Part shown: piece by piece, positions 44,475 through 62,299 of the stretch | Layout: each line of letters opens with the position of its first letter | Position numbering within the stretch: position 1 is the first letter of the stretch | Source of the DNA: an uncultured Eudoraea sp. | Lineage (GTDB): Bacteria; Bacteroidota; Bacteroidia; Flavobacteriales; Flavobacteriaceae | Length of the DNA stretch: 64,000 nt | Direction of reading: 5' to 3' | NCBI RefSeq assembly: GCF_947260015.1 | Contig: NZ_CAMYOM010000018.1 | Location: 1-64,000 of the forward strand | Program-made: the position numbers and the translations under genes | The notes under the pieces: generated by a model | The model's input: the letters and a program-made list of their open reading frames with translations, nothing else | Database searches by the model: none | Told to the model about the DNA's origin: nothing

Positions 44475-45056
44475 TTATAAGCCTTCATCAAACCCATCAA
44501 TTGGATTTATTTTATGTTTCATATTTTCTGTTCTTATTTTGTCCTGCAGCATCAGCATACCTTCCAACAATGCTTCAGGTCTGGGAGGACAACCAGGCAC
44601 ATATACATCAACAGGGATTACATGATCTGCACCTTTTACCACTGAATAAGTGTTATAGAAAAAAGGGCCTCCAGAAATTGCACAGGCTCCCATAGCAATA
44701 ACATATCTTGGTTCAGCCATCTGATCGTATAAGCGTCTTAGTACAGGGGCCATTTTGTTAACTATTGTCCCTGCTATTATTATTAAATCGGCTTGTCTGG
44801 GTGAAGGCCTGGCAACTTCAAATCCAAATCTGGAGTAATCATGGCGCGATGCACCGGTCTGCATCATTTCAATTGCACAACAACTTGTTCCAAAGTATAA
44901 AGACCATAAGGAATTGGATCTGCCCCAGTTAATTATTTTATCTAAAGAGGTTACGATAACATTGGCACCGTTGCCTGCCGGGATTACTTTGCCCGGAAAG
45001 TCTTCAGGAACTTTGCCCGGTTGACTCATTGGCTCATTTGTCTTATCTATTCCCAT
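44475..45056 (-). CDS. nuoB: Complex I subunit B
   Basis: [41 protein letters not shown]; start placed at ATG 45056. Confidence 0.95.
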
Positions 45057-45397
45057 TTTAATGCTCCTTTTTTCCATGCATATAATAAGCCCAACCCTAA
45101 AATGACAAGAAAGATTAATATTTCAAAAAATGCAATTGCTCCAATATCTTTAAACACTACAGCCCATGGAACTAAAAAGGCAACTTCAACATCAAAAATT
45201 AAAAATAGTATAGCAAATAAATAATATCCCACCTTAAACTGAACCCATGTTGGGCCGATAGTGGTCATGCCACTCTCGTAAGGTTCCCGTTTCTGAGGGT
45301 TATCAGACTTGTGAGAAATTAAATTTGATAAAAAATTCGCCCCTGCAACCAGGACAATTCCAGCAAGAAAAAATACAATAATGGCTTCAGAACCCAT
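45047..45397 (-). CDS. nuoA: Complex I subunit A
   Basis: [45 protein letters not shown]. Confidence 0.95.
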
Positions 45398-45410
45398 AGG
45401 CTAATTTACG

Positions 45411-46424
45411 TTATTTCACTTCATAAGTTTCTCCGGAGAAGAATAAATCATCAGTCTTTGTAAAGCTCGAATCAGCTTTAACGGCTGCCGTTAATTCATC
45501 AACCCGTTCTTCGAAAGTAACATCAGGAAAACTTCTAATGATACCGGTTATCAGCGGATATTCAGACCTTACCAACATTTGATGTAAGGTTGGATCTTGT
45601 TCTTCAGCATCATGAACAATCAAATCCGCTTCGGTAATTCCATTTTCTCCCAGGGTCACCACTTCTAATTTTAAACCGTTTAAGACCAGACCCTTGTTTC
45701 GTTCTTTACCAAATATCATTGGTTTTCCATGTTCAACAAATAATTGTTTGTCTTCTCGCACTGCCTTGTCCGTATATTTGGAAAAACATCCATCATTGAA
45801 AATTGGACAATTTTGAAGGACTTCGATTAAAGAAGTACCCTTAAATTTTTCGGATTTAATGAACATGTCTGTCATTTCTTTTGGAGTATTTCCCCCAATT
45901 CTGGCAAAAAAACGAGCTTGTGCACCAATAGCCAATTCACCCGGTAAAAATGGTGGTTGGGTATTGCCATAAGGCGATGATTTTGTCTTTTGCCCTACCA
46001 GCGAAGTTGGGGAGAATTGCCCCTTGGTTAATCCGTAAATTTCATTGTTGAACAATACAATATTTAGATCCAGGTTTCGTCTTAATACATGAATAAAATG
46101 ATTACCACCTATGGCCATTGAATCTCCATCTCCCGTAATGATCCAGACGCTTAGGTCCGGGTTGGCAAGTTTAACACCAGAGGCAATAGCCGGAGCCCTG
46201 CCGTGAATACTGTGCATCCCATAGGTATCCATATAATATGGAAAACGGGAGGAGCATCCTATTCCCGAAATAAATACGACATCTTCTTTTTTAAGTCCCA
46301 TTTCGGGAAGCGCTTTTTGCATGGCACGGAGAATGACATAATCATCACAACCCGGGCACCACCTTACTTCCTGGTCACTCGAAAAATCTTTGAATGTATA
46401 TTTCTTTGTCGCTGTTGTCTCCAT
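45411..46424 (-). CDS. korB: 2-oxoacid:ferredoxin oxidoreductase subunit beta (2-oxoglutarate type)
   Basis: VRWCPGCDDYVILRAMQKAL, GIGCSSRFPYYMDTYGMHSIHGRAPAIASGVK, GDGDSMAIGGNH TPP motif. Confidence 0.92.
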   Translation of the reverse strand: METTATKKYTFKDFSSDQEVRWCPGCDDYVILRAMQKALPEMGLKKEDVVFISGIGCSSRFPYYMDTYGMHSIHGRAPAIASGVKLANPDLSVWIITGDGDSMAIGGNHFIHVLRRNLDLNIVLFNNEIYGLTKGQFSPTSLVGQKTKSSPYGNTQPPFLPGELAIGAQARFFARIGGNTPKEMTDMFIKSEKFKGTSLIEVLQNCPIFNDGCFSKYTDKAVREDKQLFVEHGKPMIFGKERNKGLVLNGLKLEVVTLGENGITEADLIVHDAEEQDPTLHQMLVRSEYPLITGIIRSFPDVTFEERVDELTAAVKADSSFTKTDDLFFSGETYEVK

Positions 46425-46426
46425 TT

Positions 46427-48283
46427 CTATTTCATTATTTTTTTAAATTCCTCTATAAGTTCACTATTGCCAAAAGGTAATCCTTGAACCTTATTATATT
46501 GTAAAAACTCAATGCCATGAAAATTCATTCTTAAAACTGAAGCAAATTGGCCTGTATTTAATTCGCACACGATTATTCGTTTAAATCTTTTTAAGACCTC
46601 CTCCGTATTTTTAGGTAAGGGATTTATATAGTTAAAATGTGCAAGCCCAACAGAAGAAAAGCCTTCCTGCTTTAACTCTTTTATCGAAGAATATAAGGTG
46701 CCATAAGTGCCACCCCATCCAATTACCAGTAAATCGCCTTCATCAGCAAATTCAGTTTTCAGTTTTGGGATATAATTTTCAACTCTCTTTACCTTTTCAG
46801 CTCTGACACTGGTCATGTGTTCATGATTCTCGGGGTTATAAGAAACCTGACCAGTCACTTTATCTTTTTCCAGGCCACCTACTCTGTGTTCCAATCCAAA
46901 TGTTCCCGGAATTGCCCAGTCGCGTGCTAAAGTTTCTTCATCTCTTTCATAAGGATTCCATGTTTCTTTTGCTTCTTTTATCAGCTTGCTTTTTATCTCG
47001 GGCATTTCAGATACAGATTGTATTTTCCAGGGTGCAGAACCATTGGCAATATAACCGTCGGTCAATAGGATTACCGGAGTCATATGTTCAATAGCCAGTT
47101 TTGCTGCTTCATATGCATAATTAAAGCAATTAGACGGAGTACTGGCTGCTATAATAATAACCGGACTCTCACCATTTCTACCATACAACGCCTGGAATAA
47201 ATCTGACTGTTCAGTTTTAGTAGGCAGGCCCGTAGATGGCCCTCCTCTTTGAACATCAACCACAACTAATGGTAATTCCAGAATCATGGCCAATCCCAGA
47301 GCTTCACCTTTTAAAGCCAAACCCGGGCCAGAAGTTGTCGTGATCGCTAAATCACCAGCAAAAGCCGCACCAATTGCAGATGTGATTCCGGCTATTTCAT
47401 CTTCCGCTTGTAAGGTTTTAACTCCAAAGTGTTTATGCTTTACCAGTTCATGAAGAATATCAGAAGCAGGAGTAATGGGGTATGAACCCAAAAATAGTTC
47501 CAGACCAGATTTTTCAGCAGCAGCTAAAAATCCCCAGGCAGTGGCCGTATTTCCCATTACTATTCTGTAAGTACCTGCCGCCATTTTAGCAGGAGCAACT
47601 GTATACGAATTGGGAATTAATTCAAGGGTTTCCGCAAAAAAGAAACCTGCATTTAACACCTTTGTATTCGCTTCTATTAATTCTGGTTTGGATTTAAATT
47701 TTTTATTGAAAAATTCTATGGTATGCTCTGTAGATCTGTTGTACATCCAATAGACTATTCCCAGGGCAAACATATTTTTACTCCTGGTGATACTTTTATT
47801 GTCTAGTCCCTCAACCTCTTTTAGCGTTTCTTTTGTGAGTGAGGTCATGGCAACTTCTATGACCACATAATTCTCCAAACTTCCATCTTCCAAGGGGTTG
47901 GATTCATACTGCGCTTTTTCTAAATTCTTTTTGGAGAAGGCATCTGTATCAACTATTACGGTATGACCTGGTTTTAACGCATGTAAGTTAGTTTTGAGCC
48001 CTGCAGGATTCATGGCAACCAAAAGGTCGACATTTTCGCCGGGGGCACTTATTTCAACACTGCCAATATGGACCTGAAAACCCGATACACCATAAAGGCT
48101 CCCTTGAGGGGCTCTAATTTCTGCCGGGTAGTTAGGGAAAGTGGCAATATCATTACCGAACATCGCAGATGTGTCAGAAAATTGAGTTCCGGTCAATTGC
48201 ATACCATCGCCGGAATCACCAACAAATCTTACAACTACGGCTTCCAGTACCTCTTGTTTTTGTTTTGTTTTTGTAGCAATCAT
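46427..48283 (-). CDS. korA: 2-oxoacid:ferredoxin oxidoreductase subunit alpha (fused gamma-alpha)
   Basis: N-terminal gamma domain FVGDSGDGMQLTGTQFSD, alpha domain GSYPITPASDILHELVKH. Confidence 0.93.
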   Translation of the reverse strand: MIATKTKQKQEVLEAVVVRFVGDSGDGMQLTGTQFSDTSAMFGNDIATFPNYPAEIRAPQGSLYGVSGFQVHIGSVEISAPGENVDLLVAMNPAGLKTNLHALKPGHTVIVDTDAFSKKNLEKAQYESNPLEDGSLENYVVIEVAMTSLTKETLKEVEGLDNKSITRSKNMFALGIVYWMYNRSTEHTIEFFNKKFKSKPELIEANTKVLNAGFFFAETLELIPNSYTVAPAKMAAGTYRIVMGNTATAWGFLAAAEKSGLELFLGSYPITPASDILHELVKHKHFGVKTLQAEDEIAGITSAIGAAFAGDLAITTTSGPGLALKGEALGLAMILELPLVVVDVQRGGPSTGLPTKTEQSDLFQALYGRNGESPVIIIAASTPSNCFNYAYEAAKLAIEHMTPVILLTDGYIANGSAPWKIQSVSEMPEIKSKLIKEAKETWNPYERDEETLARDWAIPGTFGLEHRVGGLEKDKVTGQVSYNPENHEHMTSVRAEKVKRVENYIPKLKTEFADEGDLLVIGWGGTYGTLYSSIKELKQEGFSSVGLAHFNYINPLPKNTEEVLKRFKRIIVCELNTGQFASVLRMNFHGIEFLQYNKVQGLPFGNSELIEEFKKIMK

Positions 48284-48347: not shown

Positions 48348-48355
48348 CAAATATA
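48348..48355 (-). promoter_or_regulatory. -7 element of kor-nuo promoter
   Basis: TATATTTG on minus strand (TAnnTTTG), 23 nt from palindrome at 48379-48390. Confidence 0.65.
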
Positions 48356-48378
48356 AATTGGACATTTATAAAGAAATA

Positions 48379-48390
48379 TGACTTTTATCA
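48379..48390. promoter_or_regulatory. FNR/CRP-superfamily-like operator between divergent korA and ferredoxin gene
   Basis: TGACTTTTATCA (TGAY-N4-RTCA); flanked by -7 elements at exactly 23 nt in both directions. Confidence 0.68.
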
Positions 48391-48413
48391 TTAGACGGGT
48401 ATTTGTGGTACAT

Positions 48414-48421
48414 TAAATTTA
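48414..48421 (+). promoter_or_regulatory. -7-like element of ferredoxin promoter
   Basis: TAAATTTA (TAnnTTTG with final G to A), 23 nt downstream of same palindrome. Confidence 0.5.
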
Positions 48422-48449
48422 CGGACAATTATTTCAAAAACATATAATT

Positions 48450-48800
48450 ATGGCTATTATCATAACCGATGAATGTATTAACTGTGATGCTTGCGTTTCA
48501 GAATGCCCTAATAACGCAATTTATGAACCAGATCAGGAGTGGTCGTATTCAGACGAAACCGCTTTGAGTGGGATGATAAAAACTCCAGCAGGACAAGAAG
48601 TTGATGCTGATGCCGAAAATGAACCTGTTTCGGACGAGTTTTATTTTATTGTTACCGATAAATGTACAGAGTGTAAAGGTTTTCATGACGAACCTCAGTG
48701 CGCTTCTGTTTGTCCGGTGGATTGTTGTGTTCCTGATGAGGACCACGTTGAAACTGAAGAAGAACTATTAGCAAAAAAAGTTTGGATGCATGGTGAATAA
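48450..48800 (+). CDS. 2[4Fe-4S] ferredoxin with inter-cluster insertion
   Basis: CINCDACVSECPNNAIY and CTECKGFHDEPQCASVCPVDCC. Confidence 0.93.
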   Translation: MAIIITDECINCDACVSECPNNAIYEPDQEWSYSDETALSGMIKTPAGQEVDADAENEPVSDEFYFIVTDKCTECKGFHDEPQCASVCPVDCCVPDEDHVETEEELLAKKVWMHGE

Positions 48801-48827
48801 CACTTTGTTTCTAACATAAATCTAAAC

Positions 48828-48858
48828 AAACGCCCGATTGAATTTCAATCGGGCGTTT
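48828..48858 (+). terminator. Rho-independent terminator after ferredoxin
   Basis: AAACGCCCGATTG-aattt-CAATCGGGCGTTT perfect hairpin. Confidence 0.88.
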
Positions 48859-48956
48859 CTCATTTAATGGATTAATCAAATCATCTGAGATAGCGCTCGC
48901 CCTTTTCTTCTCAGAATTCACATTCTTAAATCTACTTTTTTTGGTAAAATAATACC

Positions 48957-48968
48957 TGACATTTGTCA
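48957..48968. promoter_or_regulatory. FNR/CRP-superfamily-like operator upstream of nifJ
   Basis: Perfect palindrome-core TGACATTTGTCA; TAATTTTA 23 nt downstream at 48992-48999. Confidence 0.65.
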
Positions 48969-48991
48969 TAGAATACCTTTGGTAATAGCCC

Positions 48992-48999
48992 TAATTTTA
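48992..48999 (+). promoter_or_regulatory. -7-like element of nifJ promoter
   Basis: TAATTTTA (one mismatch to TAnnTTTG) at the common 23-nt spacing. Confidence 0.5.
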
Positions 49000-49104
49000 T
49001 CCAAAATCTAAAACTAATACTACTTGTAGTTGTAGGAACAAAAATTTGTTATAAATGCACTTAAATTTTCCTAATCTGCTAGTTTCTGCATTAATAAAAT
49101 CACG

Positions 49105-52100
49105 ATGATGAAAAAATTTCCAAAGTTAATTTGTGATGCTAACGAGGCTGTTGCGCGTGTTGCTCATAAAACCAATGAAGTATGTGCAATCTATCCTATA
49201 ACCCCGGCTTCGCCTATGGGGGAACATGTAGATGTTTATAGTTCTAAAGGGCAAAATAATATTTGGGGTAATATTCCCCGCATAGTTGAAATGCAAAGTG
49301 AAGGGGGAGCTGCCGGTGCGGTACACGGCTCTTTGCAGGCAGGGGCATTAACCACTACGTTTACTGCATCCCAGGGTTTACTTCTAATGATTCCCAATAT
49401 GTATAAAATTGCAGGTGAATTGTTGCCTTCTGTAATTCACGTGGCAGCTAGAACAGTTGCAACCCATGCCCTGTCTATTTTTGGTGATCACTCTGATGTA
49501 ATGGCAACAAGACAAACTGGTTTTTCCATGCTGTTTGGAGGGTCTGTTCAGGAAGCCATGGACTTTGCTCTAATTTCTCAAATAGCGTCTTTGCGCACTA
49601 GGGTTCCTTTTTTAAATATTTTTGATGGTTTCAGGACCTCACACGAAATATCCAAGATTGATGCAATTCCGGATGATATAATTGTAGCAATGATGCCTGA
49701 GGATAAGATCATGGAACATAAAAAAAGATCTTTAGATCCAGATCATCCTGTTATAAGAGGAACATCTCAAAACCCTGATGTTTTCTTTCAGGCCAGGGAG
49801 GCATCTAATCCCTTCTATGAAAAAGTGCCTGGAATTGTTCAGGAAGTAATGGATGAATTTTACAAGCATACCGGAAGAAGGTACAGCCTATTTTATTACT
49901 TGGGACACCCTGAGGCCGAGCGGGTTATTGTAATTATGGGATCTGGCCAGGGGGCTGTAAGAGAAGCTGTTGAGGCAATGGCAAATAAAGATGAGAAGGT
50001 TGGCGTAGTGTTTGTTCGTTTATACAGACCATTTTCTGTAACTCATTTTATAGAAAGTCTACCTGTATCTGTAAAGAAAATTGCAGTTCTGGACAGAACT
50101 AAAGAGCCGGGAAGCATCGGGGAACCATTGTATCAGGATGTGATTACTGCCCTTGCAGAGAGCGACAGAAATATAGCGGTTACAGGAGGCAGATACGGTT
50201 TGTCTTCTAAAGAATTTACACCTCAGATGGTAAAAGGTGTATTTGATGAACTAACGAAGGAAAAACCCAAAAATCATTTTACCGTTGGTATAAATGACGA
50301 TATATCTCATACCAGTCTGGAATCCGATGATAATTTTAAAGTGAAAAGTACAACTTTCAATTGTATGTTCTATGGTCTTGGATCAGATGGTACGGTTGGA
50401 GCAAACAAAAACTCCATTAAAATAATTGGTGATACCACGGATAATTATGTTCAGGGCTATTTTGTCTATGATTCAAAAAAAGCAGGTGCACAAACTATTT
50501 CGCATTTGCGCTTTGGCCCGGAACCAATATATTCCTCCTACTTAATTGATAAAGCCGATTTTATAGCAAGTCATCAATTTAATTTTATTGAAAGATATGA
50601 TATGCTTGCCGATTTAAAACCCGGAGGAACCTTCTTGTTAAATTCTCCTTTTTCCAAAGAGGAAATTTGGGACAAACTTCCCAAAAAGATGCAGGAGGGA
50701 ATCATTGAAAAAGAGGCAAAATTTTATGTAGTAGATGCTACAAAAGTGGCGCAAGAAGCCGATCTTGGCAAAAGGACAAATACGGTATTACAAACTTGTT
50801 TCTTTGCAATATCTGGTATCCTGCCAAAGGATGAGGCCATTCAGAAAATAAAAGATGCCATTGTTAAATCATATGCTCACAAAGGTGATGCTGTAGTTCA
50901 GATGAACTTTAATGCAGTTGATAAATCACTAGAGAATTTATATCAGGTAGACTATCCAAAAGAAGTGAGTAGTGAGAAAGGTTTACTTTCCGCAATGACA
51001 AATGCGCCGGATGGTTTTGTTAAGAATGTACTTGAAAAAATATTAGGAGGGCATGGAGACGAATTGCCAGTCAGTGCATTTCCCGTAGATGGAACCTTCC
51101 CGACCGGTACTACGCAATATGAGAAGAGCGGAATAGCTAATTTTATTCCTATATGGGATGATGAAATACTGTGTACTCAGTGTAATAAGTGTGTGGCCAT
51201 ATGTCCACATGCTGCAATTAGAGCCAAAGTCGTCCCTAATAAGGTTATGGCAGATGCTCCGGGTAGTTTGAAATCAGTTCCTGCCAAGGGAAGGCCATTT
51301 ACCGCAGATACAGAATCTTATGTATTACAGGTATCTCCTGAAGATTGCACAGGGTGTGACCTTTGTGTAGCTGTTTGTCCTGCTGAAAGTAAGGAAATCG
51401 AGAATTTTAAAGCCATCAATATGAGGAAGAAACTCGATTTTGATGAGGTGGAAAATGTAAACTGGGATTATTTTATCAATATGCCGGACTATGACAGAAC
51501 GGCCTTACAAATCACCAATGTCAAAGGTTCTCAGTTTTTAGAGCCGCTGTTTGAATTTTCAGGTGCCTGCTCTGGATGTGGTGAGACTCCTTATATTAAA
51601 ATGCTAACCCAATTATACGGTGATAGTATTCTCATAGCCAATGCAACAGGTTGTTCCTCAATATATGGAGGGAATCTTCCAACAACTCCTTATAAAACCA
51701 ACAAGGAGGGAAGAGGTCCTGCTTGGGCAAATTCCTTATTTGAAGACAATGCCGAATTTGGTTTTGGAATGAAACTGGCCTTAACCAAGAAGCAGGAAAT
51801 TGCAGTTAATATGTTAAAGCAGCTTAAAGATGTAGTAGGGGTTGAATTAACAGAAGCCATTCTTAACAATCCGGAAGAAACGGAAGCGGAACGAAGCCAG
51901 AAATTTGCTGATATTGATAAACTTGAAGAAGTATTGTCAAAGAAAAAAGATAATCCCGCTGCTGTTAAACTAAGTCAACTTACAGAATATCTCCGTAAAA
52001 AGGGAGTCTGGATACTTGGTGGCGATGGTTGGGCTTATGATATAGGGTTTGGAGGCGTTGATCATGTCCTGGCATCAGGTGAAGATGTGAATATTATGGT

Positions 52101-52635
52101 TCTTGATACCGAGGTGTATTCTAATACAGGAGGTCAGACATCTAAAGCTACTCCTTTAGGGGCAAGTGCTAAGTTTTCGGTATCCGGAAAACGAACAGGT
52201 AAAAAAAGTCTGGCACTTCAGGCGGTTTCTTATGGGAATGTATATGTGGCTCAGGTAGCAATGGGTGCAAAGGATCTTCATACACTCAAAGCCATTGAAG
52301 AAGCTGCAGCATATCCGGGGCCATCGCTAATTGTAGCTTATTCGCACTGTGGTGAACACGGATATGATCTAAAAGATGGGGCAACGCAGCAGCAAAAAGC
52401 GGTTGAGACCGGATATTGGCCATTGTTCAGGTTTGATCCTTCTAAACCTAAAGGAAAAAAGTTTAGATTAGATTCGAAGGCACCTACTGCTCCGCTAAGT
52501 GATTTTATGTATAACGAAACCCGTTTTACAAGGGTAGTAAAAGAAAATGCAGAATTAGGTGCAGAACTCCTGAAGCAGGCTCAGGAAGAGGTAGAAACCA
52601 AATGGGAACGCCTGGAACTTTTTAGAGATATGTAA
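49105..52635 (+). CDS. nifJ: Pyruvate:ferredoxin (flavodoxin) oxidoreductase
   Basis: 1176 aa single-chain PFOR: YPITPASPMGEHVD, two 4Fe-4S motifs CTQCNKCVAICPHAAI / CTGCDLCVAVCP, CSGCGETPY, GGDGWAYDIGFGGVDHVLA. Confidence 0.96.
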   Translation: MMKKFPKLICDANEAVARVAHKTNEVCAIYPITPASPMGEHVDVYSSKGQNNIWGNIPRIVEMQSEGGAAGAVHGSLQAGALTTTFTASQGLLLMIPNMYKIAGELLPSVIHVAARTVATHALSIFGDHSDVMATRQTGFSMLFGGSVQEAMDFALISQIASLRTRVPFLNIFDGFRTSHEISKIDAIPDDIIVAMMPEDKIMEHKKRSLDPDHPVIRGTSQNPDVFFQAREASNPFYEKVPGIVQEVMDEFYKHTGRRYSLFYYLGHPEAERVIVIMGSGQGAVREAVEAMANKDEKVGVVFVRLYRPFSVTHFIESLPVSVKKIAVLDRTKEPGSIGEPLYQDVITALAESDRNIAVTGGRYGLSSKEFTPQMVKGVFDELTKEKPKNHFTVGINDDISHTSLESDDNFKVKSTTFNCMFYGLGSDGTVGANKNSIKIIGDTTDNYVQGYFVYDSKKAGAQTISHLRFGPEPIYSSYLIDKADFIASHQFNFIERYDMLADLKPGGTFLLNSPFSKEEIWDKLPKKMQEGIIEKEAKFYVVDATKVAQEADLGKRTNTVLQTCFFAISGILPKDEAIQKIKDAIVKSYAHKGDAVVQMNFNAVDKSLENLYQVDYPKEVSSEKGLLSAMTNAPDGFVKNVLEKILGGHGDELPVSAFPVDGTFPTGTTQYEKSGIANFIPIWDDEILCTQCNKCVAICPHAAIRAKVVPNKVMADAPGSLKSVPAKGRPFTADTESYVLQVSPEDCTGCDLCVAVCPAESKEIENFKAINMRKKLDFDEVENVNWDYFINMPDYDRTALQITNVKGSQFLEPLFEFSGACSGCGETPYIKMLTQLYGDSILIANATGCSSIYGGNLPTTPYKTNKEGRGPAWANSLFEDNAEFGFGMKLALTKKQEIAVNMLKQLKDVVGVELTEAILNNPEETEAERSQKFADIDKLEEVLSKKKDNPAAVKLSQLTEYLRKKGVWILGGDGWAYDIGFGGVDHVLASGEDVNIMVLDTEVYSNTGGQTSKATPLGASAKFSVSGKRTGKKSLALQAVSYGNVYVAQVAMGAKDLHTLKAIEEAAAYPGPSLIVAYSHCGEHGYDLKDGATQQQKAVETGYWPLFRFDPSKPKGKKFRLDSKAPTAPLSDFMYNETRFTRVVKENAELGAELLKQAQEEVETKWERLELFRDM

Positions 52636-52704
52636 TTCTGTTATTCAGAAATTTAAATAAATATAAATGTAGTATTTAAAGTCAATTCTAAATTAACACA
52701 GTTT

Positions 52705-53082
52705 ATGGAAGACAAAGCAAAAAGACTCTATGAGACTGCCATTCAAAAACTGAAAGAGGCTAATGATGAATTGTGCAGACCTGAGGAAGACGTTGTTGCT
52801 TTTATGGTATGCCAGAATTCTCATATTGCCATCGATAATTACCTAAAGGGGTTTTTAATTGAAAATGATATAGAGCCGGACGCAAGCGCATCTGTTGATA
52901 AGTTATATGAACAATGTAAAGCTGTGAACAGGAATTTTGAAAAAGTAAATTTATCCGGCTTTGAATGCGAGGCTCATCAATTAGATTCAAGATTCTGCAG
53001 TGGTCTATCCAACGTTAGTAGATGTTTTGACATTGCAGATAGCCTGGATACATTTCTTAGGGAGGAAAAAATCATTAGTTAA
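52705..53082 (+). CDS. HEPN-domain-like protein
   Basis: 125 aa; CQNSHIAIDNYLKGFLIENDIEPDASASVDKLYEQCKAVN; 70 bp after nifJ. Confidence 0.7.
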   Translation: MEDKAKRLYETAIQKLKEANDELCRPEEDVVAFMVCQNSHIAIDNYLKGFLIENDIEPDASASVDKLYEQCKAVNRNFEKVNLSGFECEAHQLDSRFCSGLSNVSRCFDIADSLDTFLREEKIIS

Positions 53083-53211
53083 GAGCTATAGTAATTTCTT
53101 TCGATAAAAAGAACCTATACTTGGGACAACAATATGCGCTATTCGTCCTAGAATACTTCATATTGCCATAATCTTTTCATTACTTGTAATAAACCATTAA
53201 TATTCAAGAAA

Positions 53212-53991
53212 ATGAAAAAATTATTTATGATTATGGTAATGGCCCTGTTCACTACCATCGCAATCGGGCAGGATGAAAAACCCCTGTTCCTTCAATTCGG
53301 GTTTATGCATGTAGATGAAGACCAGCAAGATGCATATGCGGAAACAGAGGCATTTTGGGAAAAAGTTCACGAACAAAGGGTTAAAAATGGGGACTGTATA
53401 GGTTGGGATCTTTGGCGTCTTGAACCGAGTGGACAAAAACAGGGGGCTCAATTTTTGACAGTAAGTCTGTACAATGACCCGGTTAAAATGATGGATGGAG
53501 GCGATTTTATGAAGGCGTGGAATGATGCTTACCCTAATCTGTCAGATTCAGAAAGCGAGGAAAAAATGGCCATGACAGTAAAAAGCCGGGATCTTACACA
53601 TGTGGTATATCTTAGTGAAATAGATAAGACTAATGATACTTTTGATATGCCTATTGGAACTTTAGCGATTATCAACTTCATGAAGGCAAAACCCGGGCAG
53701 GCAGCAGCCTATGAAAAAATGGAATCAGAAGTTTTTAAGCCAATGCATCAAAGTGATGTGGATTCGGGAGGCAGGGCTAACTGGGGATTGTTAAGAAATA
53801 TGTTAGGTTATGGAACAGAGTCATATGCCACCCATATTACAGTGGATATGTATACGGGTTATGATCAATTCTTTAATGCAGGTAACAATGCACCAGCATC
53901 CGACGCACAACAAAAAGCATATGAGGAAATGACTGCGCTCAGGGACCTTAAGTCCGTGACTATGGCCACTTTAGTTAGAAAAGTTCGTTAA
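53212..53991 (+). CDS. Secreted hypothetical protein, possible tandem dimeric alpha/beta-barrel (ABM-like) domains
   Basis: Signal peptide MKKLFMIMVMALFTTIAIGQ; two similar ~100-aa units. Confidence 0.6.
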   Translation: MKKLFMIMVMALFTTIAIGQDEKPLFLQFGFMHVDEDQQDAYAETEAFWEKVHEQRVKNGDCIGWDLWRLEPSGQKQGAQFLTVSLYNDPVKMMDGGDFMKAWNDAYPNLSDSESEEKMAMTVKSRDLTHVVYLSEIDKTNDTFDMPIGTLAIINFMKAKPGQAAAYEKMESEVFKPMHQSDVDSGGRANWGLLRNMLGYGTESYATHITVDMYTGYDQFFNAGNNAPASDAQQKAYEEMTALRDLKSVTMATLVRKVR

Positions 53992-54025
53992 ATTTTTAGA
54001 TTAGCTTAACTATTATTTGATTCAA

Positions 54026-54055
54026 ATCCTCCCAAATTACCGGGAGGATTTTTTT
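54026..54055. terminator. Rho-independent terminator between convergent genes
   Basis: ATCCTCCC-aaattacc-GGGAGGATTTTTTT. Confidence 0.85.
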
Positions 54056-54059
54056 GTAA

Positions 54060-55127
54060 TTAACTCCAGGTTTTTCTAAGAAATCGAATGAAGTTCACAT
54101 GCATAATATTTTCAATATCCCCGGTGTTATAACCCCTTTTATGAAGCAAATCCGGGAGTTTCTGTAAATCGGCAATGGTATCTATATCTGCCGGACTTTG
54201 CTCTTTGCCAAATCCGCCATCGAGATCGGTCCCAATCCCCACATGTAAGGCGTTCCCTGCAAGTTGACAAATATGGTCTATATGATCAACCATTATTTCT
54301 AAGGTTACCCCCATGGCTTCAGGGGTCGATTTACCGCGTACCCAGTTTGGAACCATCATCCAGGTATCCAGGGCAATACCAATAACTGCATCCCTTTTTA
54401 TAAGTTCAATGATTTGTTCATCTGAAAATTGCCTGTTATGGTTTACCAAAGCCCTGCAATTATTATGGCTGGCCCAAAGTGGACCCTGGTAGGCCTTCAT
54501 GGTTTCCCAAAAACTTTCATCGCATAAATGGGTAGTGTCTAAAATAATATTTAATCGTGCTATCTCTTTTAAAAGCTCCTTTCCTTTATTGCCAATTCCC
54601 CCAATGGAATTTGTGCCGTGAGCATAGGTTCCGGGCCCATAATGAGCAGGCCCAATGGCCCGTAAGCCTTGCTGATAACTTTTCTCCAGATGATCAAGTG
54701 TAATAATAGAGTCGGCTCCTTCGAGACTTAAAATATATCCGATAGGTTTTTTATGCTTAGCGGGAGAATTCCAGAGATCCAGATGCCTGTTCAATTCTTC
54801 TTTGTTCGTAATCTGGGTCAATTCTCCAATAGCTTCCATTGTCCGGTACCACGCGAGTTGACCTTGAGTTTGCGCCCAGGCCTGGTGAGGGGAATTCCAT
54901 CCGGGTAGATGACTATCTTTTTTTACAAAACGCGCAATCTGAGTGGCCATGCAAATGCCAATATTGCCCTTTCTCATAGCGTCAAAAGAAACTGTATTTT
55001 TACCCCTATCCGGTTTGTCCGTCATCTCTGTCTCTTTTGCACGGATATCCTCAACGGACCAGCTAAGATCCCGGTTCCATTCCATTGCGTTCATTGCCAA
55101 ATCAAGATGTGCGTCAAAAATAAACAT
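54060..55127 (-). CDS. Membrane (renal-type) dipeptidase, peptidase M19
   Basis: FIFDAHLDLAMNAMEW, ILSLEGADSI, DTTHLCDESFW, GIGTDLDGGFG; start placed at ATG 55127, after the upstream gene's stop. Confidence 0.9.
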   Translation of the reverse strand: MFIFDAHLDLAMNAMEWNRDLSWSVEDIRAKETEMTDKPDRGKNTVSFDAMRKGNIGICMATQIARFVKKDSHLPGWNSPHQAWAQTQGQLAWYRTMEAIGELTQITNKEELNRHLDLWNSPAKHKKPIGYILSLEGADSIITLDHLEKSYQQGLRAIGPAHYGPGTYAHGTNSIGGIGNKGKELLKEIARLNIILDTTHLCDESFWETMKAYQGPLWASHNNCRALVNHNRQFSDEQIIELIKRDAVIGIALDTWMMVPNWVRGKSTPEAMGVTLEIMVDHIDHICQLAGNALHVGIGTDLDGGFGKEQSPADIDTIADLQKLPDLLHKRGYNTGDIENIMHVNFIRFLRKTWS

Positions 55128-55135
55128 ATGTATTT

Positions 55136-56248
55136 TTATATTTGGATTTGATGATCTCTTGCGGCAATTTGCCATGCTCCTGTTATCTGAGAGTCCTCAA
55201 CCGTCAGAACTTTTGAATATTTAGCCACAGTGGGGCAAATATGCATGGGAATGCCATAAAAGACATCACCTATTCTTAAGTTTTCACTTTTGGAATAACG
55301 AAGTACTAAATGTTCTTCACTTTGACCAATTTGTTCTGCATCTTCCAATCCAAAGATTTTCACCCTAGGTAAATCCATCTCAGGAGCTATGGCTTTATGC
55401 CCCAGATCTAAACAGATAATTCCTTCTTTGGGTTTACTGATAATTCTGGTAAGTAACACCGCCGCCGGTAAAAATGGCATATCCCTAAAAGAAGTTCCAT
55501 AGCGCTCATCCCAAAGCACTGTTGTTCCGGGACTGGTTTCGATATTTTGTCTTGCCGCATGAATTGGAAATGTAGGCGATCCTCCCATAACTAGTGTTTC
55601 TACTTCTAAACCACAAGCTTTAATTTTGTTTTTAAGACTAATAACCAAATCAAAAGCAGCATCACAAGCCTGTTTTCGAAGTTTTATATCTGTATTCCTG
55701 ATATGGCCATCATATGCATGCATTCCACGGGCATATAGGTTTGGGTCTACTGCAATTTGCTTGAACAATTTAACGGCATTGTCATTGGGTTCTATCCCTG
55801 TTCTGTTCATACCGGTATTGAGGTCCAGGAATAATGGTACAATTATCTTGTTGAAAGCGGCCATTTCTGAAATAAGGCCAACAGTAAATTCATTATCCAC
55901 AATAGTAGAAAATACTGAATTGGGATAAGTGGCAATCAGTTTAAAGAACCTGTTTAAATTAGCACCAACAGGCTGCATGGACAATAGAATGTCTTTGGCA
56001 TCACATTGTGCTAAAAGCTCCGCTTCTGCAATAGTGGCACATTTAAATTTTTGTATACCATGTTGCATTTGCATCTCTATAATCTCGGCCGTCTTATGGG
56101 TTTTTATATGCGGACGAAGCCTGGTTACATCTCCTATAATTGAAATCATCAATGCAATGTTTTTTTCAATTCTATCCGGATATACCAACAAGGTGGGAGA
56201 AACAATTTCCTCGGGATTATTAAGTTCATACCAATTTTTACCTGCCAT
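55136..56248 (-). CDS. D-threonine aldolase / D-serine dehydratase-like PLP enzyme (fold-type III)
   Basis: RPHIKTHKTAEI PLP Lys motif, LDLNTGMNRTGI, C-terminal metal motif MHICPT. Confidence 0.88.
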   Translation of the reverse strand: MAGKNWYELNNPEEIVSPTLLVYPDRIEKNIALMISIIGDVTRLRPHIKTHKTAEIIEMQMQHGIQKFKCATIAEAELLAQCDAKDILLSMQPVGANLNRFFKLIATYPNSVFSTIVDNEFTVGLISEMAAFNKIIVPLFLDLNTGMNRTGIEPNDNAVKLFKQIAVDPNLYARGMHAYDGHIRNTDIKLRKQACDAAFDLVISLKNKIKACGLEVETLVMGGSPTFPIHAARQNIETSPGTTVLWDERYGTSFRDMPFLPAAVLLTRIISKPKEGIICLDLGHKAIAPEMDLPRVKIFGLEDAEQIGQSEEHLVLRYSKSENLRIGDVFYGIPMHICPTVAKYSKVLTVEDSQITGAWQIAARDHQIQI

Positions 56249-56259
56249 TTTGAATCTGT

Positions 56260-56724
56260 TTAATGCAGCTGAAACATGGCTTCAATTTCAACCGGGATAT
56301 TACCCGGCAACATCATACCCACGGCACTTCGGACACCTACTCCATTATCGGTACCAAAAACATCTGCCATTAACTCGCTAAAACCATTAATAACTAAAGG
56401 GTGTTGTCCAAAATCAGGTGTAGAGTTCACCATCCCCAATACCTTTACGACTCTTTTAATCTTGTCTAAATCTCCAAAATGTGTTTGTATCGTAGAGAGC
56501 ATAGTTAAACCAACCTGTTCTGCAGCTAGTTTGGCCTGCCCCAGGGTAAGATCTTCACCAACCCTCCCGGTGATTAATGTTCCATCTGATTGCATAGGTC
56601 CCTGTCCGGATACATAAAGAAAGTTGTCTACTACCAGGATGGGTTTATATAGTCCAGCAGGAGGTGGAGCAGGAGGTAATTTTAACCCCAATGATGCTAT
56701 TCGTTGTGAAGGTAAATTGTTCAT
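56260..56724 (-). CDS. RidA family (enamine/imine deaminase)
   Basis: FLYVSGQGPMQSDGTLITGRVG, RSAVGMMLPGNIPVEIEAMFQ. Confidence 0.88.
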   Translation of the reverse strand: MNNLPSQRIASLGLKLPPAPPPAGLYKPILVVDNFLYVSGQGPMQSDGTLITGRVGEDLTLGQAKLAAEQVGLTMLSTIQTHFGDLDKIKRVVKVLGMVNSTPDFGQHPLVINGFSELMADVFGTDNGVGVRSAVGMMLPGNIPVEIEAMFQLH

Positions 56725-56733
56725 ATGCTTGTT

Positions 56734-58050
56734 TTAAATGAATGTGTTTAAGATCAATACTCCAATAAGTCCCATTACTCCAACCATAGTCTCCATAACA
56801 GTCCATGTTTTAAGTGTATCTCTAACAGACAAATTAAAATACTCTTTAAACAACCAGAAGCCTCCATCGTTGACATGTGATAACATTAAACTTCCTGATC
56901 CAATGGCCAGTACCATTAATTCCGGACTAACACCTGTATTGGATACGAGGGGTAATATTATTCCCGCAGCAGTTAATCCTGCCACCGTGGCAGATCCCAC
57001 ACAGACCCTGATCACCGTTGCTATGAACCAGGCCAATATTAATGGAGAAATCGTAGATCCACTCAGCATATAGGCTATGTAATCACTTACACCACTATCT
57101 ACCAGGACCTGTTTTAAAGCACCAGCACCTGCTATAATCAAAAGTACCATTGTAATTCCTGAAATGGAACTGCCTACAGACCCCATGATTTCGGGCATTT
57201 TTTTACCACGTGCTAATCCCAGGGTGTAGATTGCAACCAGTACAGAGATAAGCATCGCTATTACAGGATTGCCAAGAAAATCTATAATCGGCTTAAGATA
57301 GAAATCTTTGGAAAGAAACAGATCTGCTAAGGTGGCAATTCCAATAAGCAGGATGGGTAATAAAGCAGTAAAGATGCTAATTTGCATTCCCGGCATTTCA
57401 TGATCTTCCAGTATTCTGGGATTTACAAATTCCTTAAGAGGGGTTGCTTTTATATTTTTTATCGTCCTGGAAAATAATGGGCCGGCAACAATTATTGCCG
57501 GGATAGCCACGATGATCCCATATAACAAAGTTTTACCCAGATCGGCATCAAACATTATTGCTATGGCTGTGGGAGCAGGATGGGGGGGAAGATATCCATG
57601 TGTAACGGATAGTGAGGCCAGCATAGGTAAACCTACATATAAAAGGGGAAGCCTGGTTGAGGCCGCCACTGTAAATACCAGAGGTATTAAAATAACAAAG
57701 CCTACAGAATAGAACATAGGGATACCAACAATGAATCCGGTTAGTACAAGGGCCCACTGTATATTTTTTATACCAAACTTACTTACAAGTTTTGAAGTTA
57801 TGCGTTGTGCTGCTCCGCTATCGGCAACCAATTTGCCCAACATGGCACCAAAGCCTAAAATCATTACTAAAAATCCCAAAGTACTCCCTATTCCGTTCTG
57901 GATAGATTGTACCACGTCTTCAAGCTGCATTCCCTCTGCAATACCCACAAATAATGAAACAAGGATAAAAGTTATAAATGCATTGAGTTTGAATTTGGCA
58001 ATCAGGATAAAGAGAAGTATTATCCCTATAATTACTATAACTAGCGGCAT
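56734..58050 (-). CDS. GntP family permease (gluconate/D-serine type)
   Basis: 438 aa multi-TM; LPPHPAPTAIA, SHVNDGGFWLFKEYFNLSVRDTLKTWTVMET. Confidence 0.9.
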   Translation of the reverse strand: MPLVIVIIGIILLFILIAKFKLNAFITFILVSLFVGIAEGMQLEDVVQSIQNGIGSTLGFLVMILGFGAMLGKLVADSGAAQRITSKLVSKFGIKNIQWALVLTGFIVGIPMFYSVGFVILIPLVFTVAASTRLPLLYVGLPMLASLSVTHGYLPPHPAPTAIAIMFDADLGKTLLYGIIVAIPAIIVAGPLFSRTIKNIKATPLKEFVNPRILEDHEMPGMQISIFTALLPILLIGIATLADLFLSKDFYLKPIIDFLGNPVIAMLISVLVAIYTLGLARGKKMPEIMGSVGSSISGITMVLLIIAGAGALKQVLVDSGVSDYIAYMLSGSTISPLILAWFIATVIRVCVGSATVAGLTAAGIILPLVSNTGVSPELMVLAIGSGSLMLSHVNDGGFWLFKEYFNLSVRDTLKTWTVMETMVGVMGLIGVLILNTFI

Positions 58051-58132
58051 ATGGGTTGTTGGTTATGATCTTTGAAGTACTAAATATACTATTTCATAAA
58101 AGAAATAGTAGCGTTTGGCCTAAACAAAAATA

Positions 58133-58150
58133 AAGGGCCATTTTGGCCCT
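58133..58150 (-). terminator. Rho-independent terminator after aquaporin
   Basis: Minus strand AGGGCCA-aaa-TGGCCCTTTATTTTTG. Confidence 0.8.
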
Positions 58151-58157
58151 GATTATT

Positions 58158-58847
58158 TTAACTTTTACTTTCGGGAGAAATATATTTATATACGAGTCCC
58201 GCTATTAAGGCACCTACTATTGGAGCTACCCAAAAAAGCCATAACTGGCCAATGGCCCAGTCGCCGGCAAATAAAGCCTGACTTGTACTTCTGGCTGGAT
58301 TTACAGAGGTATTAGTAACAGGGATACTTATTAGGTGGATTAGTGTTAGTCCAAGTCCTATGGCTATACCAGCCATTCCTTTTGGAGCTTTGGAATGCGT
58401 AGCTCCTAGAATAATGATCAGGAACATAAAAGTCATTACTACCTCTGTAATAAGAGCGGCTAACATACTGTAACCACCCGGGGAATGTTCCCCATAACCA
58501 TTGCTGGCGAATCCTCCAACTTCAAATCCGGGTTTTCCGGTAGCAATTACGTATAATATTCCTGCTCCTGCAATACCCCCCAATACCTGCGCAATTATGT
58601 AAGGAACTAATTCCTTACTTTCAAAACGGCCACCTATCCATAGCCCTATAGAAACTGCAGGATTAAGGTGGCAACCTGAAATATGCCCAATGGCGTAGAC
58701 CATAGTCAACACGGTAAGACCAAATGCAAGGGATACTCCCAAGAAACCAATTCCAAGTTCCGGATACGCTGCGGCCAGGACGGCACTTCCGCATCCACCA
58801 AGCACCAGCCATAGGGTGCCGATAAATTCTGCTAGTAGTTTTTTCAT
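58158..58847 (-). CDS. aqpZ: Aquaporin Z-type MIP channel
   Basis: HLNPAVSIG and SVNPARS NPA motifs. Confidence 0.95.
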
Positions 58848-59043
58848 TTTTTGTTTTGTTGGTTAATTAATAATTTTTATCAAGATAAACATTTTTACTA
58901 AAGATTGGAATTGAATACCGGATTAGAAAATGATACTATTTAAGAAAAAATTTCAATTAATAAATATTGAATTGCTTTTATTATCTTGTGATGGAAAACA
59001 TCAATTTTGGCCATTTACGTGGCTCTATCAAGTAGGCAAAACG

Positions 59044-59055
59044 TGATAAATGTCA
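59044..59055. promoter_or_regulatory. FNR/CRP-superfamily-like operator upstream of doxX
   Basis: TGATAAATGTCA, 23 nt before TAGTTTTG (59079-59086). Confidence 0.65.
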
Positions 59056-59078
59056 TAGGAAACGTAGGTTTCTGAGTC

Positions 59079-59086
59079 TAGTTTTG
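59079..59086 (+). promoter_or_regulatory. -7 element of doxX-mocA promoter
   Basis: TAGTTTTG (TAnnTTTG). Confidence 0.6.
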
Positions 59087-59299
59087 ACCAGTTTTATCCT
59101 ATTTATTAAGCTATTATTTATCTTACTATTCATAAAGTTTTTGTTAGTATTGAACACGTTAATTTTACAAATCCTTTGCACATGAAATAAATGATTAAGC
59201 CTGAATACTATTACTTTATCTAGTAATACATTATAATCTAAAAATTGCTTTAAAAGTTCTTTTAAGAGAACAACTAATTAACAACTTTAACTAAACAAT

Positions 59300-59794
59300 A
59301 TGACTGAAACTAAAGGAAAATGGCAATTAAAACACAGTGTTGTGTTTATGCGCGTACTTATTGGCTGGCATTTTTTGTATGAAGGTGTCGTAAAGCTTTA
59401 CAATCCTGATTGGACTTCATTTGGCTATCTGGCAACGGCCCAAGGTCCATTTAAACCTTTATTCCTTATAATAGCCAAAGAACCGATAATTGGTTGGGCA
59501 GACACCCTTAATTGGTTGGCACTTATGTTTGTAGGGATTACTCTTTTGTTAGGGATATTTGAGAAAAAAGGCGCTTTAGTGGGTATAATTCTACTCGCTT
59601 TGTATTATTGGGCACATCCTCCTTTCCCCTGGTTAATGCAAGTAAATGTTGAAGGAAGTTATTGGTTTGTAAATAAAAATTTAATAGAACTTGCCGCCTG
59701 CATGGTTATTTATCAATATCCTACCGGACAATACTTCGGTCTAAAATACTTATTTAATAAAAAAAATGAACAAACTAAAACTGAAACCTTATGA
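59300..59794 (+). CDS. DoxX/DoxD-like membrane protein
   Basis: FMRVLIGWHFLYEGVVKLYNPDW, multi-TM. Confidence 0.82.
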   Translation: MTETKGKWQLKHSVVFMRVLIGWHFLYEGVVKLYNPDWTSFGYLATAQGPFKPLFLIIAKEPIIGWADTLNWLALMFVGITLLLGIFEKKGALVGIILLALYYWAHPPFPWLMQVNVEGSYWFVNKNLIELAACMVIYQYPTGQYFGLKYLFNKKNEQTKTETL

Positions 59795-61377
59795 AATGGT
59801 CTAGAAGAGATGTAATTAAAGGCTTAGGCGGAATCCCAATACTTGGTGCTGTCTGGTGGGCAGGTGCTTCAAATGCGGTTTCCAAAAACAGGGAGCGCAC
59901 AGCCATACTGGAACAATTAAATATACAGCCTTCATTGCCTTCTGCAGTAAAAGCAATTAGCGGTGATCCCATAAGAGTAGGAATTATTGGTTTTGGTATT
60001 CGGGGAGAACAATTAATCAGAGCATTAGGATTTGCAACCAAAGAATGGTTGGAAGAAATGAGATTAGCTGCAGAGGAGGATCCGAATCACTCCAGTTTGG
60101 AAGATTTTATGAATCAGGATAAACTGAATGTAAAACTTACGGCAGTTTGCGATGTGTATGATGTTAGGGCAGACAGGGTAATTAATTCTTTTTCTACCGA
60201 GGATAACAAGGTGATTAGATTTAGGACGCATCAGGAAATGATCCGCAGCGGGAAAGTAGATGCGGTAATTATAGCTACCCCGGATCACTGGCATGCCCCT
60301 ATGGCCATAGATGCTCTTGAAAATGGGATACATGCCTATGTGGAAAAACCGATGACGCATACCGTAGAAGAGACATACAGGCTAAAAGAAGTCGCTGAAA
60401 AGTCTAAAGCATCACTAATGGTTGGCCACCAACACAGACAAACTTTAAGTTTTCAAACGGCTCAGGATATTGTAACCAAAGGGGTACTTGGTCACATATC
60501 TCTTGTCCAGACCAATACCAACAGGAACGATGATAATGGCGCATGGAATTATAACATAGAAGACGAGGCAAATCCTCAAACCATAGATTGGGATCTCTTT
60601 TTAGGTTCTGCACCACAAATACCCTTCAATAAGAATCACTTTTTCAGGTGGAGAAAATGGTGGGCATACGGATCCGGTCTATCCGGAGATTTATTAACCC
60701 ACGATTATGATCGTCTTAACTGTGTATTGCAAATGGGTATCCCTTCATCCGTAATGGCTTCAGGAGGAATTTATACTCATAATGACGGTCGTAATGTTCC
60801 CGATGTATTACAGGTAAATATGGAGTTTCCACAATTTAGTACAGGTAGTAGTCAGAAAAAGGGCAAGGAAAAAGGAATGACTTTTGTCTACAGTGCAACT
60901 CTTGGAAATGGCTTTAACAGGCCAACTATTCTTATGGGACATGATGGTACCTTGGAATTAGGCAATCGGCTCACGGTATGGCCCGATAGCAGCTCTACAA
61001 AGTATGCAGATCAGATTGAATCTGAGAAAATGAAACCATCGGTTCCGGTTTACAGCTACAATCCCGGGGCCAGTGTGCCAGACGCGGTTTCCTCGGCAAC
61101 GTCGCAATATTTTGCGGATAAGGGTCTAATGTGGACCTATATTAATGGCGCAAGAGTTGATTCAACATTTCTTCATTTAAGGGAATGGCTTAGCAGTGCC
61201 CGTAACGGAGGTGCAGTGAGTTGCGGAATAAAGGAGGGATTTGAAGAAGCAATATCAGCTCATATGGCAGGACTTTCAGTTAAACTTGGAATACGAATTA
61301 AATGGGACGCTGCTGCACAGCGAATTGTGCCGATTGAAGGAATTGATTTTGACGAGGTGCTATTATCCAATACTTAA
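59791..61377 (+). CDS. Gfo/Idh/MocA family oxidoreductase with Tat-like signal
   Basis: SRRDVIKGLGG twin-Arg; IRVGIIGFGIRGEQLI Rossmann; VEKPMTHTVEE. Confidence 0.9.
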   Translation: MKWSRRDVIKGLGGIPILGAVWWAGASNAVSKNRERTAILEQLNIQPSLPSAVKAISGDPIRVGIIGFGIRGEQLIRALGFATKEWLEEMRLAAEEDPNHSSLEDFMNQDKLNVKLTAVCDVYDVRADRVINSFSTEDNKVIRFRTHQEMIRSGKVDAVIIATPDHWHAPMAIDALENGIHAYVEKPMTHTVEETYRLKEVAEKSKASLMVGHQHRQTLSFQTAQDIVTKGVLGHISLVQTNTNRNDDNGAWNYNIEDEANPQTIDWDLFLGSAPQIPFNKNHFFRWRKWWAYGSGLSGDLLTHDYDRLNCVLQMGIPSSVMASGGIYTHNDGRNVPDVLQVNMEFPQFSTGSSQKKGKEKGMTFVYSATLGNGFNRPTILMGHDGTLELGNRLTVWPDSSSTKYADQIESEKMKPSVPVYSYNPGASVPDAVSSATSQYFADKGLMWTYINGARVDSTFLHLREWLSSARNGGAVSCGIKEGFEEAISAHMAGLSVKLGIRIKWDAAAQRIVPIEGIDFDEVLLSNT

Positions 61378-61426
61378 TAAGGAAAGGCGCATCCCACATA
61401 AGTGAATCTGCTAGATTATAATTCAG

Positions 61427-61461
61427 GTAATCAGGACTCTTTTTAGTCCTGATTACTTTTT
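61427..61461 (+). terminator. Rho-independent terminator after mocA
   Basis: GTAATCAGGACT-ctttt-AGTCCTGATTACTTTTT. Confidence 0.9.
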
Positions 61462-61510
61462 AATAGCCCATTTTTTGAATAGCAAAATTTATGATATCAT
61501 TGATCTAACC

Positions 61511-61522
61511 TGATAAATATCA
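61511..61522. promoter_or_regulatory. FNR/CRP-superfamily-like operator upstream of tonB
   Basis: TGATAAATATCA, 23 nt before TAATTTTG (61546-61553). Confidence 0.65.
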
Positions 61523-61545
61523 TATTATCTACATTTCACATGACG

Positions 61546-61553
61546 TAATTTTG
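61546..61553 (+). promoter_or_regulatory. -7 element of tonB promoter
   Basis: TAATTTTG (TAnnTTTG), 23 bp before tonB ATG. Confidence 0.6.
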
Positions 61554-61576: not shown

Positions 61577-62299
61577 ATGCAAGTCAAAAAAAACCCAAAA
61601 GTCGATTTAAATAGAAATAGAGGGCTGTATTTTGTAATAGGACTTACAGTCGTTCTGTTTTTGACCTGGCGTGCTTTAGAATACAAATCGTATCCTACAG
61701 ACACCATAACTCTGGACATTGCGCAGGCCGTAGATGACCTTAAAGAAGATGTACCGGTAACAGAGATTATAAAAACAACACCACCACCACCACCACCTGC
61801 TGCTCCTGAAGTAATTGAAGTCGTAGAAGACACAGAGGAAATAGAAGAAACAATTATTGAGAGTACAGAAACTAGTCAGGAATCAGTGATTGAAGAGGTA
61901 ATGGACGTTGATGATGTTGAAGTTGGAGAAGAAGAAGAGGATATCGTAGTCCCCTTTGCAGTCATAGAAAATGTTCCAATTTATCCCGGTTGTGAAAATG
62001 CAAAAGGCAATGATGAACGTAAAGCTTGTTTTCAAAAAATGATACAAGCCCATATTGTTAAAGAATTTACTTATCCCGAGAGTGCCCTTGAACTGGGAAT
62101 TAAAGGAAAAGTATTTGTACAATTTATGATTAATTCTAAAGGAGTAGTAGAGTCAATAAGGACAAGGGGTCCAGATAAACTATTGGAGAAAGAAGCACAT
62201 CGAATTATTGCTTCACTCCCTAATATGACTCCGGGGATGCAACGCGGAAAATCTGTAAAAGTTCCATATAGTATACCTATTAACTTTATGATTCAATAG
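61577..62299 (+). CDS. tonB: Energy transducer TonB
   Basis: N-terminal TM, PPPPPPAAPEV linker, C-terminal KVFVQFMINSKGVVESIRTRGPDKLLEKEAHRIIASLPNMTPGMQRGKSVKVPYSIPINF. Confidence 0.93.
   Translation: MQVKKNPKVDLNRNRGLYFVIGLTVVLFLTWRALEYKSYPTDTITLDIAQAVDDLKEDVPVTEIIKTTPPPPPPAAPEVIEVVEDTEEIEETIIESTETSQESVIEEVMDVDDVEVGEEEEDIVVPFAVIENVPIYPGCENAKGNDERKACFQKMIQAHIVKEFTYPESALELGIKGKVFVQFMINSKGVVESIRTRGPDKLLEKEAHRIIASLPNMTPGMQRGKSVKVPYSIPINFMIQ
61781..61797 (+). repeat. (CCA)n microsatellite coding TonB polyproline
   Basis: CCACCACCACCACCACC. Confidence 0.9.

Follow-up and report, generated by a model that had tools for sequence, protein, structure and literature searches.

A fixed 23-nt operator spacing points to a probable Crp/Fnr class II regulon of ferredoxin and low-oxygen genes in Flavobacteriaceae

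We analyzed a window of 64,000 nucleotides from an uncultured Eudoraea sp. of the family Flavobacteriaceae (contig NZ_CAMYOM010000018.1, positions 1 to 64,000), in which four palindromic boxes of the form TGAY-N4-RTCA stand before the kor-nuo operon, a ferredoxin gene (fdx), nifJ, doxX-mocA and tonB (Table 1). We consider it likely that these boxes are class II operators, and that an FNR-type protein encoded beside ccoI-ccoSNO is the regulator of the window operons, activating low-oxygen genes. Direct reading of the sequence agreed with all coordinates given in a previous sequence-only reading for the four boxes and five promoter –7 elements (TAnnTTTR), with a spacing of exactly 23 nt in each case, and with its statement that the first box feeds two divergent promoters. 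That reading also proposed a single class II activator of the FNR/CRP superfamily. The link to the superfamily and to class II activation is supported by the spacing, its conservation, the low-oxygen targets and the Crp/Fnr genes described below, but the idea of a single activator is not, because both the FNR-type protein and a response regulator-Crp fusion protein appear to use the architecture.

The complete pattern TGAY-N4-RTCA-N23-TAnnTTTR was found 39 times in the 3.42 Mb genome (17 forward and 22 reverse), compared with a single match for the reversed pattern used as a control; its frequency is therefore not that of background. When the spacer was allowed to vary from 9 to 39 nt (31 values), 38 of 45 genome-wide matches fell at 23 nt, and the remaining 30 spacings accounted for seven in total. 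Under a simple model based on how often TAnnTTTR occurs in the window (0.0018 per position per strand), the chance that five of the 10 directed window boxes share one spacing was ~1.4e-10, corrected for 31 spacings (3e-8 when the frequency was tripled for AT-rich intergenic DNA), and that of the genome-wide peak was 8e-62. By contrast with the full pattern, the bare palindrome occurs in the window at the background rate (five observed versus 4.3 expected); in other words, the signal is the fixed spacing, not the palindrome itself. This background rate would fit a chance coincidence in AT-rich sequence, but the spacing peak, the control counts, the chance figures and the conservation in relatives refute that explanation, to which we attach practically no probability. 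Among the sites checked on other contigs, only 1/33 lay inside a long open frame. Alignment of the genomic sites gave (A/C)TGAY-N4-RTCAT-N22-TAnnTTTR with no separate –33 TTTG, and a promoter-side T followed RTCA in 38 of the 39, extending the full box form to ATGAY-N4-RTCAT. The A/T-only composition of N4 noted previously holds for the window boxes but not as a genome-wide rule (counterexample, TGACCAAGATCA).

The architecture is conserved in orthologous loci of relatives. The box, the 23-nt distance and TAnnTTTR were kept upstream of kor in 68 of 79 loci (KorA homologues from Eudoraea and other Flavobacteriaceae), nifJ in 35/49, doxX in 10/11 and tonB in 9/9, while the sequence of the 23-nt spacer drifts. 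Within the kor upstream regions, 68 of 90 pairings of a box with a –7 element were at 23 nt. A single box with the 23-nt spacing towards both kor and the divergent ferredoxin gene was present at 23/79 kor loci, and all eight of the closest Eudoraea-type loci (L063–L070) have this shared form. Of the 11 kor loci that lack the pattern, five retain an exact box but not the exact –7 match, and in at least three a box differs at one or two bases. The –7 element ended in A in all conserved nifJ promoters among the loci listed and mostly in G at kor; this final base possibly sets promoter strength. In a survey of 297 Bacteroidota genomes, the pattern was frequent in Flavobacteriaceae, reaching 41 per genome (control 0–2), and sparse elsewhere. 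One outlier from another class of the phylum (G272) had 24 boxes at N23 (control 0), and at its locus L280 an fnr-like gene lies near a second Crp/Fnr gene, a Usp gene and a ferredoxin-like gene.

FNR and CRP act as class II activators from position –41.5. The transcription start site (TSS) map of Flavobacterium psychrophilum places the sigma-A element TAnnTTTG at –12 to –5 (Guerin et al. 2021, PMC9723704). With the first T of TAnnTTTR at –12, the N23 spacing would put the centre of the 12-bp box at –41.5, in line with the value near –41 expected previously, and the operators are thus predicted to occupy the class II position. Judged by their –7 element, the promoters are of the Bacteroidota sigma-A type, without a separate –33 element, and the architecture shows how a Crp/Fnr activator can act on such a promoter.

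In Escherichia coli, FNR has the ligands C20, C23, C29 and C122 and the recognition helix E209-x-x-S212-R213, and its operator is TTGAT-N4-ATCAA. In view of work on FNR/CRP specificity, replacement of S212 by I would be consistent with an operator that no longer has the outer T of TTGAT. The Eudoraea genome contains six Crp/Fnr genes, two of which share a helix E-x-x-I-R; both lie outside the window, which holds no regulator gene, as noted previously, on contigs C3 (FNR type) and C12 (fusion). A cyclic nucleotide monophosphate (cNMP)-binding-like domain followed by a helix-turn-helix (HTH) domain, HTH_Crp, was found above cut-off in both (PF00027 and PF13545), which places them in the Crp/Fnr superfamily. 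The FNR-type protein has 231–248 residues, and its gene adjoins ccoI. Its recognition helix, TATES(C/A)IR, keeps the E and R and has I in place of S. The equivalents of C20, C23 and C122 are present in the Flavobacteriaceae type as a C-x2-C motif and a cysteine aligned with C122, whereas that of C29 is absent and an extra conserved cysteine occurs in VFC/VYC. All four cysteines are conserved in the Bacteroidota orthologues aligned (L143–L169) except in one sister-family group (L163, L164 and L166–L168), which has lost all four and retains an unchanged recognition helix. This joint loss suggests that they form one functional unit, most simply the ligands of an Fe-S cluster with the C29 ligand displaced. 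The other four Crp/Fnr proteins are unlikely readers of the boxes; their helix is of the R-x-VVSR type and they lack the FNR cysteines.

The consensus TTGAT-N4-ATCAA, cited in the sequence-only reading, is not the form of the box here: it was absent at the same spacing in the genome, and TTGAY-N4-RTCAA-N22-TAnnTTTR gave 0 matches versus 39 for TGAY-N4-RTCA-N23-TAnnTTTR. Short palindromes are also read by other HTH families; a regulator of another family might accordingly read the present boxes, with the Crp/Fnr link being coincidental. We regard this as highly improbable, given that the TGA-N6-TCA half-sites match the conserved E and R of the Crp/Fnr recognition helix, that the FNR-type gene is itself boxed and that boxes cluster at Crp-type genes.

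At fnr, the box is centred near –27: in 17 of 22 loci, which represent 16 of 21 distinct genomes since L151 and L262 are one gene, it precedes the –7 element of fnr by 8–11 nt. Binding there should block the promoter, and the box probably represses fnr; one operator would then serve in two registers, probably activating at –41.5 and repressing near –27. At one locus (L145), the box at fnr is in the activating register. The –27 position is a typical repressor register and Crp/Fnr proteins are able to repress, and it might be argued that the boxes repress the window operons as well. This is very unlikely, however, since the register at the target genes is exactly –41.5 without a –33 element, which is the geometry of class II activation, and this spacing stays exact even though the spacer sequence changes. 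We found no support for a role of the promoter-side T (at +6) in activation instead of binding: 15 of 17 fnr boxes in the repressor register also carry it, and a comparison of shared with one-way boxes was not significant (P = 0.07).

Outside the window, boxed genes include ccoSNO for the cbb3 oxidase (TIGR00780/PRK14485), hemN (TIGR00538) and several Usp genes; the box at ccoN and hemN is also kept in other genera. Further boxed genes encode a sulfide quinone reductase (SQR)-like oxidoreductase, a multihaem cytochrome, flavin and pyridoxamine oxidase-like proteins, YgaP-like membrane proteins and others, and many encode hypothetical proteins. In F. psychrophilum, oxygen limitation strongly induces cbb3 and haem synthesis (PMC9723704). 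The boxes probably switch on genes of ferredoxin-based energy metabolism and further low-oxygen genes. We propose that the FNR-type protein holds an oxygen-labile Fe-S cluster, probably on the four cysteines in view of their co-conservation and co-loss. When oxygen is scarce, its dimer would attach to ATGAY-N4-RTCAT and engage RNA polymerase, so that kor-nuo, fdx, nifJ, doxX-mocA and tonB are transcribed along with the cbb3 oxidase, hemN and Usp genes; it would probably repress its own gene via the same box placed nearer the promoter. The FNR-type protein is predicted to bind ATGATAAATGTCAT.

The second candidate is a receiver-cNMP-HTH (REC-cNMP-HTH) fusion encoded behind a PAS histidine kinase on contig C12. 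If driven by this adjacent kinase, the fusion could be the main activator of the window operons, with the FNR type playing a minor role. Like the FNR type, it has an ExxIR recognition helix, and boxes are concentrated around its own operon in many genera. Moreover, four genomes (G053, G130, G234 and G242) carry the fusion and lack the FNR type by search (in G234, by a single search), and they keep 7–13 boxes against a control of 0. For G053, G130 and G242 the range is 7–10, including boxes at ccoN (G053), hemN (G053 and G242), and kor and fdx (G242); the kor promoter of G242 matches exactly the one in Gramella sp. KN1008 (L139). A further genome, G088, was excluded when boxes were counted in FNR-lacking genomes, as it encodes another cysteine-bearing Crp/Fnr protein (L170), although its sites are among the 31 submotif sites below. 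Between 3 and 16 boxes were present in each of 14 genomes that have the FNR type but not the fusion, and six with the FNR type and a close fusion had 14–41 each.

The two groups of genomes with a single regulator differ in the base after TGAY. This base was A at 25/30 sites in FNR-only genomes versus 9/31 in fusion-only genomes (P = 3e-5), and TGAYA accounted for 7/8 boxes near fnr versus only 12/49 near the fusion gene (P = 0.001). The four window boxes, when oriented to kor, nifJ, doxX and tonB, are all TGAYA and are therefore assigned to FNR by this sign. Weighing this against the evidence from FNR-lacking genomes, we judge control of the window operons mainly by the fusion to be possible but rather unlikely.

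Several points weigh against the FNR-type protein as the activator acting through these boxes. The kor box persists in FNR-lacking G242, and FNR is therefore not the sole possible user. Genomes with only one of the two regulators are few and clustered by genus; the regulator assignment, and with it the TGAYA comparison, is thus confounded with phylogeny. The best-scoring NCBIfam family of the FNR-type protein is Fnr, yet its score of 104.6 bits is below the cut-off of 228 (NF008365). There are 228 bare boxes in the genome, and only 38 have a promoter at N23. Finally, it is a prediction from sequence that the protein binds the boxes, senses oxygen and activates rather than represses.

The kinase beside the fusion gene (L037:12254-14149, minus strand, on contig C12 of this genome, G000) has PAS domains. 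In G000 and five other genera it contains a LOV domain with the photoactive motif NCRFLQ, and its best solved-structure matches are LOV photoreceptors. This motif was not found in the fusion-adjacent kinases of FNR-lacking genomes, which rules out light as a general, core input of the fusion branch; some genera may use it as an additional input. Usp genes and thioredoxin-like, ATP-cone and metallo-beta-lactamase-fold-like genes surround the kinase-fusion pair (L037:3305-12201), and Usp-centred versions of the cluster occur in several other genera.

The proposed system resembles the E. coli FNR class II regulon in its Crp/Fnr dimer, –41.5 centre, cysteine-containing regulator, probable autorepression and low-oxygen targets, for example hemN, Usp and respiratory genes. 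It differs in the outer half-site base (A/C rather than T, with a T on the other side), in the regulator (ExxIR instead of ExxSR; the third N-terminal cysteine missing and another conserved cysteine in the sensor domain), in the promoter (a sigma-A –7 TAnnTTTR instead of a –10 TATAAT) and in targets that include a putatively ferredoxin-linked complex I. FnrL/FixK-type regulons of Alphaproteobacteria share the cbb3 and hemN core targets, and FixK is likewise tied to a PAS-kinase two-component system; in FixLJ-FixK, however, the response regulator activates fixK transcription, whereas here the receiver and Crp domains are in one protein. The predicted HcpR/HcpR2 of Bacteroides and Porphyromonas belong to the same family and phylum, but their motif is GTAAC-N4-GTTAC and the regulon in most Bacteroides is hcp only (PMC1274295). 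PgRsp of Porphyromonas gingivalis is also a Crp/Fnr-family redox regulator in the phylum; unlike the present candidates it is haem-binding, and the text searched gives no operator consensus (PMC6955866). The F. psychrophilum promoter map, from the same family, reports the TAnnTTTG –7 element and low-oxygen induction of cbb3 and haem genes; neither a Crp/Fnr regulator nor a box is named in its main text (PMC9723704).

No description of the regulon, the box or the fusion regulator was found in the open-access literature, in agreement with the sequence-only reading; subscription papers and supplements were outside this search, and the novelty is therefore provisional. We provisionally regard the system as a Crp/Fnr class II regulon in kind, and as a variant in its operator outer base, cysteine set, promoter type and apparent regulator swap. 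Among the major degraders in marine, soil and freshwater systems are the Flavobacteriaceae, for which the same search found no published low-oxygen regulon. The exact operator geometry and conserved targets make the regulon predictable from sequence across the family, with two candidate regulators named, and would place ferredoxin-fed complex I, pyruvate:ferredoxin oxidoreductase and ferredoxin under low-oxygen control. Direct tests of the evolution of FNR sensing and of network rewiring are offered by the variant cysteine set and the apparent regulator swap. Tentatively, and with less than even confidence, we suggest a single –41.5 network in Flavobacteriaceae with interchangeable regulators: in some genera the FNR type with its displaced ligand, in others the fusion under a PAS kinase (a LOV blue-light kinase in some), and in several both. 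Ferredoxin-driven complex I and the cbb3 oxidase would then respond jointly to oxygen and to another signal, which may be light or redox.

Table 1. Boxes, –7 elements and target genes in the window, and examples of a related box in other genomes
Feature	Position	Strand	Remarks
Operator box 1, ATGACTTTTATCAT in context	48379..48390	none assigned	common to divergent kor-nuo and fdx promoters
–7 element TATATTTG of korA-korB-nuo operon	48348..48355	minus	23 nt from box 1
–7 element TAAATTTA of ferredoxin gene	48414..48421	plus	23 nt from box 1
korA-korB-complex I subunits A, B, C, D, H, I, J, K, L, M, N (target operon)	35727..48283	minus	Pfam matches
korA	46427-48283	minus	NCBIfam OAFO_sf match
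korB	45411-46424	minus	Pfam
NuoM	37177-38664	minus	assigned from size and position only
fdx, YfhL-family 2x[4Fe-4S] ferredoxin (target gene)	48450..48800	plus	NF033683 above cut-off
Operator box 2, TGACATTTGTCA	48957..48968	plus	upstream of nifJ
–7 element TAATTTTA of nifJ	48992..48999	plus	23 nt after box 2
nifJ, pyruvate:ferredoxin oxidoreductase (target gene)	49105..52635	plus	TIGR02176
Operator box 3, TGATAAATGTCA	59044..59055	plus	upstream of doxX-mocA
–7 element TAGTTTTG of doxX-mocA	59079..59086	plus	23 nt after box 3
DoxX-like membrane protein and Gfo/Idh/MocA oxidoreductase (target operon)	59300..61377	plus	Pfam; DoxX score just under curated cut-off
Operator box 4, TGATAAATATCA	61511..61522	plus	upstream of tonB
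–7 element TAATTTTG of tonB	61546..61553	plus	23 nt after box 4
tonB, TonB C-terminal-domain protein (target gene)	61577..62299	plus	Pfam TonB_C
TTGAY-N4-RTCAA examples	G057:C1:161801, G088:C2:410505, G154:C7:58990, G182:C13:50476, G272:C1:582859

The NADH module (EFG) was not found by Pfam within the kor-nuo gene run; complex I subunits A–D and H–N thus occur without it, and we infer that the kor-nuo complex is ferredoxin-linked.

A rarer box, TTGAY-N4-RTCAA, has the same 23-nt geometry when counted from RTCA and adjoins other Crp/Fnr paralogue genes (Table 1), which suggests parallel class II regulons with the classical box. An abundance of TTGAY..RTCAA boxes, predicted for genomes with an ExxSR helix in the fusion, found no support (0–2 per genome, with no clear correlation). 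The boxed oxidoreductase at L039:15163-16410 (minus strand, G000 contig C2) scored above the NCBIfam cut-off for type III sulfide quinone reductase, selenoprotein subtype. In the window, a 259-aa protein without a Pfam or NCBIfam match (53212-53991) follows nifJ and the gene for a HEPN-domain protein, which lies directly after nifJ (52705-53082).

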